64,000 bases of DNA from an uncultured Anaeromyxobacter sp. (GTDB taxonomy: Bacteria > Myxococcota > Myxococcia > Myxococcales > Anaeromyxobacteraceae), in assembly GCA_903855945.1 (NCBI GenBank), contig CAIOAK010000015.1, positions 186,001 to 250,000 of the forward strand, given 5' to 3'. The notes beneath the pieces were generated by a model. It was not told the DNA's origin. It ran no database searches and saw only the letters and a program-made list of their open reading frames with translations. This document shows, in pieces, positions 48,134 to 50,343 of the stretch. The position numbers were made by a program, and so were the translations under genes. Position 1 is the stretch's first letter. Every line of letters begins with the position of its first letter.

Positions 48134-48373
48134 ATGCCCTGCCCCTCCTGCGGTTCGATGCGGATCCGCCCCTCCCGGCCCAAGGGCCGGCAGGAGGTGT
48201 TCCTGCGCATGTGGACGCAGACCCGGTTCTACAAGTGCCGGGATTGCGGCTGGCGCGACCGTCGGCCCCGGACGACCCGGGACGGGGAGAAGGACCAGCC
48301 CGACCTGCGTTTCTGGGCGGTGGCGATCGTCGTGGCGCTGGGGTTCATCTACCTGCTCCTGCGCGACGGCTGA
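48134..48373 (+). CDS. small zinc-ribbon membrane protein
   Basis: 79 residues. CPSCGS at the N terminus and CRDCGW near residue 36 form a four-Cys zinc ribbon; a basic middle (RPRTTRDGEK) precedes one hydrophobic helix near the C terminus (FWAVAIVVALGFIYLLL). The topology suggests a cytoplasmic zinc domain tethered to the membrane by a tail anchor. I know of no function. Confidence 0.7.
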   Translation: MPCPSCGSMRIRPSRPKGRQEVFLRMWTQTRFYKCRDCGWRDRRPRTTRDGEKDQPDLRFWAVAIVVALGFIYLLLRDG

Positions 48374-48446
48374 GGTCGATTCCCTTGCGCGCCACCCGGA
48401 GACGCGCGACATAGTCCCCTCCCGAGAAACCTAAGGAGGTAGGACG

Positions 48447-48779
48447 ATGACCCGCATTCCTGTACTGGCCCTGCTCGCGCTGCTCGCGACGGGCTGCGCC
48501 ACCAGCGCGTCGGTGAAGCAGGAGCTGACGCCGCTGAACGACAAGGTGACGGCCATGGAGCAGAAGCAGGCCGCCCTGGACGCCAAGCTGGCCGATCTGA
48601 ACAAGAAGGCCGACGCACAGTCGGCCGACATCCAGGCGCTCCGCAAGGAGATCGCCAGCTCCAACGCGGCGTCGCAGAAGGCGGCGGCGGATGCCGAGGC
48701 GGCGGCGACGCGCGCCGAGACGGCGGCGGCCAAGGCGGCCAAGGCCTTCGAGCTGAAGCAGATGAAGGGCGCGAAGTAG
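48447..48779 (+). CDS. alanine-zipper lipoprotein ending in lysine (Lpp/OprI-like)
   Basis: 110 residues with a perfect TAAGGAGGT Shine-Dalgarno. The lipobox is LLATGC. After it comes a nearly continuous alpha-helical coiled coil of Ala/Lys/Glu repeats (AALDAKLADLNKKADAQ, then AAATRAETAAAKAAKAF), closing with KQMKGAK. Braun lipoprotein and OprI share the layout lipid-anchored N terminus, coiled coil and C-terminal lysine. An L,D-transpeptidase lies 49 bases downstream in the opposite direction and another 1.1 kb away, so covalent attachment to peptidoglycan is an attractive inference. Confidence 0.8.
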   Translation: MTRIPVLALLALLATGCATSASVKQELTPLNDKVTAMEQKQAALDAKLADLNKKADAQSADIQALRKEIASSNAASQKAAADAEAAATRAETAAAKAAKAFELKQMKGAK

Positions 48780-48790
48780 CAGGGCGTTTC

Positions 48791-48819
48791 GGGGGGCGCG
48801 GCGTCTCGTCGTGCCCCCC
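48791..48819. terminator. hairpin between convergent lipoprotein and L,D-transpeptidase genes
   Basis: Ten-base stem (48791-48800 with 48810-48819) containing six G-C pairs at its outer end and one G-U pair, nine-base loop, no U-tract. Located between two stop codons facing each other. Confidence 0.5.
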
Positions 48820-48827
48820 GGACGTCG

Positions 48828-49805
48828 TCACACCCGGTCGGAGGTGACGTCCACCGGGTAGCCGCGCATCTCCCGGAGCGCCGCAGCGAGCTTCTCGGGA
48901 TCGATCGATCCCGTGAGCTTCCGCTTCGCGATGAGCTTCCGTGCCTCGGCGACCGGATCCAGCCCGGACTCGTCGTCGCGGTGCACCTCGACGAAGACGC
49001 GCCCGGCGCGCACCCCGATCTTCACCGGCTCCCGGACGATCCGCACCTCGGCACCGACCGGAACCTGCGTGAAGAGGATCGTGATGTCCTCGGGATAGAG
49101 CCGCAGGCAGCCGTGGCTCGCCTTGCGGCCGACGCCGAACGGACGGTCGGTCCCGTGGATCAGGATCGAGCCCTTGGAGAGGCGCAGCGCGTGGGTTCCG
49201 AGCGGGTTGTCCGGCCCCGGCGGCACCATCGCCGGAAGGTCCGGCTCCTCCTTCCGGATGGAGGCGGGCGGGTACCAGGGCGGATTCACCTGCTTCTGGA
49301 TCACCTGGAAGGTCCCGGTGGGCGTGAGCCATCCCTCGCTGCCGATCCCCACGGGGAAGGTGGTGGTCGGGCCCGGCTTCTTCGGGAACTGGAAGAGGCG
49401 CATCTCGGAGAGGTTCACCACCACCCGCCCCGGCGCGGCCGCGCGCGGGACGATCCAGGAGGTGGGCAGGACGACCAGCGCGCCCACCGTGGGCACGAAG
49501 GCGTCGAGCCCCGGGTTGGCATCCTCGATCTCGTTGAACCCGAGGTCGTGGTTGCGCGCCATCTCGATGAGCGACTCGCCCGGCAGGACGACGTGGGTGC
49601 AGGTCTCGCCGATGACCTCGATCCCGCTGCAGTCGGCGGCCGCGCAGGAGGCGGCCTGGATGATCGGACAGGGAGGCGGCGCCTCGACGACGGGCGGCGG
49701 GGGTGCGGGTGGGGGTTCCTTGGGTTCGGGCACGGGCGGAGCCTGGGCGCACGCCGCCGCGAGGGCGGCGAGGAGCAGAACCGAGAACCGCGTGCGCACG
49801 GACAT
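48828..49805 (-). CDS. L,D-transpeptidase lipoprotein with LysM domain
   Basis: 325 residues, ATG at 49805. Lipobox LAAAC, then a Pro/Pro-Ala linker (PKEPPPAPPPPVVEAPPP). LysM at about 80-130 (VVLPGESLIEMARNHDLGFN) binds glycan. The YkuD domain has ILIHGTDRPFGVG and KASHGCLRLYPEDI, where Cys is the catalytic residue. This group includes E. coli ErfK/YbiS/YcfS, which link Braun lipoprotein to peptidoglycan. It is anchored in the envelope by its lipid. Confidence 0.93.
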   Translation of the reverse strand: MSVRTRFSVLLLAALAAACAQAPPVPEPKEPPPAPPPPVVEAPPPCPIIQAASCAAADCSGIEVIGETCTHVVLPGESLIEMARNHDLGFNEIEDANPGLDAFVPTVGALVVLPTSWIVPRAAAPGRVVVNLSEMRLFQFPKKPGPTTTFPVGIGSEGWLTPTGTFQVIQKQVNPPWYPPASIRKEEPDLPAMVPPGPDNPLGTHALRLSKGSILIHGTDRPFGVGRKASHGCLRLYPEDITILFTQVPVGAEVRIVREPVKIGVRAGRVFVEVHRDDESGLDPVAEARKLIAKRKLTGSIDPEKLAAALREMRGYPVDVTSDRV

Positions 49806-49869
49806 GGGTGAAGGGTTAGTGGAAGGTGGCGGGCGTGACAAGGGTCCGGCGCGCGGTTAGCGTCCCCGG

Positions 49870-50343
49870 ATGCTCGCGGCCGTGACCCTGGCGCTCCTCC
49901 TCGCCGCCGACCCGGCCCGGCCGGCCTGCCCGGCTTCCGGGATGGTGGTCGCCATCTTCACGCTCCAGCGGCAGCTCTGGCTCTGCCGGGACGGCGTCGA
50001 GACCGCGCGGATCCCGGTGGCGCTGGGGCGAGGGGGGAGCGACAAGTACCGGAAGGGGGACGGCCGGACGCCGCTCGGCGCCTACGCGCTCGGGGAGCCG
50101 CGTCCGTCCAGCCGATACGGCACATTCATCCCCATCCGGTACCCCACGGAGGATCAGGCGAGGCGGGGACACTCGGGGGAGTCCCTCGGGATCCACGGCC
50201 CACCGCGCGGGCAGGCGGAGCCGGACTACCCGACCACCGCGGTGGACTGGACGCTCGGCTGCATCGCCACCGGGACCGACGCGGACGTGGAGGCCGTGGC
50301 GGCCTTCGTGCGCCGGTACGGACCGACGGTCCTCATCCGCTGA
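49870..50343 (+). CDS. small L,D-transpeptidase family protein
   Basis: 157 residues with a weak signal peptide (LAAVTLALLLAADPARP). The YkuD-type core has GIHGPPRG and DWTLGCIATG with the catalytic Cys. The His before it is IHG. No LysM or lipobox. It is divergent from the larger L,D-transpeptidase with 64 bases between the starts. A periplasmic role in cross-linking or modifying peptidoglycan is likely. Confidence 0.88.
   Translation: MLAAVTLALLLAADPARPACPASGMVVAIFTLQRQLWLCRDGVETARIPVALGRGGSDKYRKGDGRTPLGAYALGEPRPSSRYGTFIPIRYPTEDQARRGHSGESLGIHGPPRGQAEPDYPTTAVDWTLGCIATGTDADVEAVAAFVRRYGPTVLIR

Follow-up and report, generated by a model that had tools for sequence, protein, structure and literature searches.

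The window, by which we mean the whole 64,000-nucleotide stretch of Anaeromyxobacter sp. DNA that was analysed, carries three neighboring genes between positions 48447 and 50343. The first of them (48447..48779, + strand) encodes an Lpp/OprI-like alanine-zipper lipoprotein of 110 aa, whose mature form would comprise 94 aa starting from Cys17 and whose C-terminus reads ...KAFELKQMKGAK, where a conserved lysine (K107) is followed by the tail G108-A109-K110. The open reading frame displays a high third-position GC content and is preceded by a strong Shine-Dalgarno-like sequence (AAGGAGG, approximate position 48433..48439, + strand). A LATGC lipobox occupying residues 13-17 predicts lipidation, alanine accounts for 31% of the protein and a heptad pattern is apparent, with 73% of the a/d positions being hydrophobic as compared to 35% elsewhere, a score matched by 76 of 20,000 shuffled sequences. 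The lipoprotein is kept at 76-77% identity in three relatives of the same genus and, in the two relatives for which the DNA was compared, the differences fall mostly at third codon positions. The open reading frame, the lipobox, the heptad pattern and this conservation all confirm the 110-residue lipoprotein with an alanine zipper that the original prediction had described. Just 5' of it, positions 48134-48373 of the window (+ strand) encode a predicted protein of 79 aa, which with its paired CxxC motifs and its hydrophobic segment at the C-terminus resembles a membrane-anchored zinc ribbon.

Profile searches with the window lipoprotein yielded 18 bits for NF040598, below its cut-off of 43, and no match to the Pfam profiles PF11839 and PF04728. 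In contrast, orthologues from Thermodesulfovibrio (53.8 bits), from another member of the Nitrospirota and from one member of the Geobacteraceae (29.9 bits) passed the threshold of 23.1 for PF11839 (major outer membrane lipoprotein), the profile which also recognizes OprI, with the caveat that coiled coils give weak scores against many profiles. The lipoprotein family is therefore already partly catalogued. When compared to the PDB, the lipoprotein profile matched mainly generic coiled coils, Lpp included.

The second gene (48828..49805, - strand) is convergent with the first, 48 bases separating their stop codons, and encodes an ErfK/YbiS/YcfS/LdtE-type L,D-transpeptidase, the candidate tethering enzyme. 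Translation likely starts at the ATG at 49805 (325 aa) rather than at the TTG at 49841 (337 aa). Its YkuD domain scored 90 bits against a cut-off of 23.4 and the catalytic SHGCLRL fits the S.GC.R pattern. Over the full alignment, the protein shares 36% identity with E. coli LdtC, and it shares 35% with LdtE, N-terminal LysM-like region included; its profile matched 4lzh and 9tyw across almost the full length. The original prediction of an L,D-transpeptidase lipoprotein with LysM was thus correct as to the enzyme, the N-terminus of which aligns with those of LdtC and LdtE, but its lipobox (LAAAC) is weak and no LysM was called by Pfam. The closest NCBIfam model was that of LdtE (160.6 bits against an equivalog cut-off of 480); judged by its sequence, the enzyme is a relative and not an orthologue of LdtE.

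The third gene (49870..50343, + strand) adjoins the transpeptidase gene in divergent orientation and encodes a small YkuD protein of 157 aa, a candidate release enzyme. It scored 50.6 bits with the Pfam YkuD profile and 21.1 bits with the DpaA equivalog NF040599 (cut-off 365), and carries the active site GCIA, with an alanine at Cys+2, instead of GCxR; GCIA or GCVA is present in all Anaeromyxobacteraceae small YkuD copies located beside the pair. The DpaA-type amidases, which detach Lpp, carry an alanine or an asparagine two residues after the catalytic cysteine whereas transpeptidases carry an arginine (PMC8263019). This gene had been annotated as a second, small L,D-transpeptidase: the YkuD protein is real, but GCIA is a hydrolase signature and, with alanine in place of arginine at Cys+2, the protein is probably misnamed as a transpeptidase. 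The 4.07 Mb host genome encodes three YkuD proteins, these two and an LdtD/YcbB-like protein with scaffold and peptidoglycan-binding domains, a set that recalls P. aeruginosa, in which the roles of the three YkuD proteins are cross-linking, the anchoring of OprI and its release (PMC10434034).

Within the Anaeromyxobacteraceae, the lipoprotein and the transpeptidase were both found in the same nine of 24 genomes and neither was found in the other 15. The pair is adjacent and convergent in every genome possessing both, and because the two genes are carried by the same genomes, adjacent in each, we conclude that their adjacency is not due to chance. So exact a co-occurrence would be expected by chance once in 1.3 million for independent genomes, and these are not independent. 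The distribution is patchy by genus, with the pair in 4/4, 1/3 and 4/9 genomes of three genera and in none of three others. Among 195 Myxococcota genomes sampled, ten encode a close relative of the transpeptidase, the tenth being a Myxococcaceae genome where it also forms a convergent pair. In Anaeromyxobacteraceae genomes devoid of the pair, the lipoprotein profile gave weak coiled-coil matches, with E between about 1e-4 and 1e-5, that had no C-terminal box and were discarded as noise. Additional copies of either gene were also observed. Anaeromyxobacter oryzae encodes a second lipoprotein paralogue ending in KGARKQ, located some 17 kb away from the pair and with no adjoining transpeptidase (C1:532010-532324, L022), and three genomes, all from the fourth genus and one of them that of Anaeromyxobacter sp. 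PSR-1, have elsewhere a second transpeptidase copy with no adjoining lipoprotein (G006 C1:1856422-1857219, G019 C1:2585114-2585974 and G017 C344:39895-40722; L064-L066).

The pair extends well beyond this family. When the transpeptidase alignment was used to search named genomes, 50 loci were retrieved, and a profile search of their neighborhoods detected the lipoprotein beside the enzyme in 38 of them, belonging to Geobacteraceae, Geomonas, Geotalea, Desulfuromonadaceae, Syntrophus, Thermodesulfovibrio, other Nitrospirota, Halomonadaceae and Aquisalimonas. To avoid the bias that comes with an enzyme-based selection, loci were also picked by the lipoprotein alone. For the class of Thermodesulfovibrio sp. 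N1 (Nitrospirota), the 30 best lipoprotein loci included 27 with the transpeptidase adjacent, the three unpaired loci being shortened and close to contig ends; for the order of Geomonas paludis (Geobacterales), 29 out of 30 had it adjacent. Nitrospirota and Anaeromyxobacteraceae have the two genes in convergent orientation, and in Geobacterales both convergent and tandem arrangements occur; lpp and ldtE of E. coli K-12 are likewise adjacent and convergent. The arrangement had been proposed to have arisen independently in this lineage, a claim that we do not retain: being common to Nitrospirota, Geobacterales, Syntrophus and some Gammaproteobacteria, the pair is not an invention of the myxobacterial lineage. 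Several genomes of the Thermodesulfovibrio class carry two or more alanine-zipper lipoprotein paralogues (for example G195 C15:34-378, L149, and G202 C7:9902-10237, L150), and some copies ending in KKAFELQQKK in this class have no transpeptidase in the flanking sequence examined.

In a maximum-likelihood tree of the transpeptidases, the myxobacterial enzymes and one Geobacteraceae sequence formed a clade inside a well-supported Nitrospirota/Desulfobacterota group. The enzymes of E. coli and other Pseudomonadota branched outside the Nitrospirota/Desulfobacterota/Myxococcota clade, which led us to discard recent transfer from enteric bacteria. The tree, in which deep branches are not resolved and for which sequences were sampled via a pattern search, suggests that the enzyme was likely transferred among Nitrospirota, Desulfobacterota and Myxococcota.

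The C-termini of the lipoproteins were then compared. Outside Anaeromyxobacteraceae, 93 of 93 orthologues, which are loci and not independent events since the genomes behind some of them are close relatives or overlap, end in a lysine located exactly six residues past a conserved hydrophobic residue, usually phenylalanine (e.g. KAFELQQKK). The same spacing could be read directly from the sequence of E. coli Lpp and is also that of OprI. All ten Anaeromyxobacteraceae copies instead continue beyond the homologous lysine for another three to five residues, a short tail led by glycine (GAK, GKM, GRQ, GARKQ or GKK); none ends at the conserved lysine and five do not have lysine as last residue. The KAFELxQxKG box, including its lysine, is invariant among them. 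Since K107 is followed by such a tail, K110 is not the homologous terminal lysine, and in the alignment it is K107 that corresponds to the terminal lysine of the orthologues. The original prediction had designated the C-terminal lysine as the anchor and considered that its lack of conservation in orthologues would refute a tether. Within the family, the last residue is indeed not a conserved lysine, but the invariant K107 is the counterpart of the residue forming the exact C-terminus everywhere else.

These features are best compared to three characterized systems. As in E. coli, where lpp-ldtE is complemented by LdtA/B/C and DpaA, we find convergent genes for a lipoprotein and an ErfK-type YkuD protein, a coiled-coil lipoprotein with a lysine box and a YkuD homologue with alanine at Cys+2. 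The system differs from that of E. coli in its mature lipoprotein of 94 aa instead of 58 aa, in the tail past the conserved lysine, in the location of the DpaA-like gene inside the same cluster, in its phylum and in the position of the window lipoprotein under the Lpp/OprI profile cut-offs. It also resembles OprI (PF11839) of Pseudomonas with LdtPae2 and LdtPae3, in which an alanine-zipper lipoprotein is accompanied by an anchoring enzyme and an amidase, for both of which the window offers candidate genes; apart from the lipobox and the C-terminal box, similarity to OprI is low. In Coxiella LimB and Legionella Lpg1810, covalent attachment was likewise reported to go through a lysine located before the last residue, as K107 is, but these two are not alanine-zipper lipoproteins and have their lysines at other positions. 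On the evidence of its genes, the system is best called one that works like Lpp/OprI tethering, with a lipoprotein that lacks two marks of the family, a score above the profile cut-off and the conserved lysine at its very end.

The pairing across phyla, the lysine box and the co-occurrence in the family make an Lpp-type tether, as originally proposed, the best reading of the locus. We consider it probable that the outer membrane and peptidoglycan are joined by a covalent tether of the Lpp/OprI type encoded here. In such a system, the lipoprotein would be lipidated at Cys17 and inserted in the outer membrane, its alpha-helical alanine-zipper coiled coil would span the periplasm, and the adjacent ErfK/YbiS-type enzyme, acting in the direction of attachment, would couple a tripeptide stem, at its meso-diaminopimelate, to the epsilon-amino group of a lysine in the KAFELxQxK box. 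With K107 followed by a Gly-led tail, attachment would take place either through this internal lysine or once the tail has been trimmed, K110 being an alternative acceptor in this species. The neighboring small YkuD protein would probably be a hydrolase releasing the tether or trimming stem peptides.

For this third gene the choice lies between a DpaA-type amidase and an L,D-carboxypeptidase, both of which would make it, as is probable, a hydrolase. That it is a carboxypeptidase trimming stem peptides, unrelated to any tether, is a serious contender that falls a little short of an even chance; this reading bears on no gene but the third, and the other two could still form a tether. A Foldseek search with the predicted fold (pLDDT 84) ranked the L,D-carboxypeptidase Pgp2 first and DpaA fifth, followed by Csd6 and Bd1075. 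The gene is moreover kept in one Anaeromyxobacteraceae genome without the lipoprotein-transpeptidase pair (G020 C1:48200-48625, L126), and A. dehalogenans-like genomes carry a second copy at another place. However, the closest YkuD structure by sequence is that of DpaA (8ikr), the gene adjoins the transpeptidase in all eight Anaeromyxobacteraceae loci with enough flanking sequence, and genes for DpaA-like GC.A proteins also occur close to the enzyme in loci from Geobacteraceae, Syntrophus, Nitrospirota and Aquisalimonas.

A different view of the pair itself would make the enzyme an LdtE-like 3-3 cross-linker and the lipoprotein a non-covalent coiled-coil spacer, the two genes being adjacent solely through a shared envelope function. 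The tether has against it that the best model for the enzyme, LdtE, describes a cross-linker in E. coli, that the window lipoprotein scores below the family thresholds and that half of the Anaeromyxobacteraceae copies have no terminal lysine, a residue required in Dickeya. E. coli ldtE adjoins lpp, yet its product makes 3-3 cross-links instead of attaching Lpp (PMC8263019, PMC12729407), a reaction carried out by LdtA/B/C (PMC8263019), and phylogeny does not distinguish anchoring from cross-linking enzymes (PMC10434034). We nevertheless consider the cross-linker unlikely, as the host genome already encodes a separate LdtD/YcbB-like cross-linker and the lysine box, placed exactly at the C-terminus in 93 of 93 orthologues, would be hard to explain without an acceptor role.

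We find it just as improbable that the Anaeromyxobacteraceae tail blocks or changes attachment, so that covalent tethering would have been lost and the lipoprotein would be free in the outer membrane. The tails are variable, no copy of the family ends at the conserved lysine and, in Dickeya, a lysine at the extreme C-terminus is necessary and sufficient for attachment (PMC12274547). Against such a loss, the lysine and its box are invariant in the family, the enzyme is retained beside the lipoprotein in every genome with both, and anchoring through non-terminal lysines is on record, via Lys21 of Coxiella LimB (PMC12274547, PMC12729407) and in Legionella Lpg1810 (PMC11841132).

A survey based on PF04728 confined Lpp to a subset of Gammaproteobacteria and concluded that DpaA must serve another purpose elsewhere (PMC8263019). 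The restriction of Lpp to only a subclade of Pseudomonadota was repeated later (PMC10260701), and a 2025 review treats membrane-peptidoglycan attachment within gammaproteobacteria, with no mention of Geobacter, Nitrospira or myxobacteria (PMC12729407). In the literature searched, which mostly excludes subscription journals, we found no report of the lipoprotein in Geobacter or Myxococcota and no description of the lipoprotein-transpeptidase pair in Nitrospirota, Desulfobacterota or Myxococcota. We tentatively propose, as possible more than probable, that covalent Lpp-type tethers occur across these three phyla, beyond the Pseudomonadota subclade credited with Lpp, and that the Anaeromyxobacteraceae have a short tail covering the anchor lysine, so that tethering would need an internal lysine or removal of the tail, a step which could control it, and a neighboring gene would supply a release enzyme. 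The tail of the Anaeromyxobacteraceae lipoproteins provides a clean test case for the need of a terminal acceptor lysine, and if the pairs are tethers, the cultured Geomonas, Thermodesulfovibrio and Anaeromyxobacter strains would allow immediate testing. The published distribution of Lpp would then be too narrow, and the presence of DpaA-like enzymes in Deltaproteobacteria would be readily explained.
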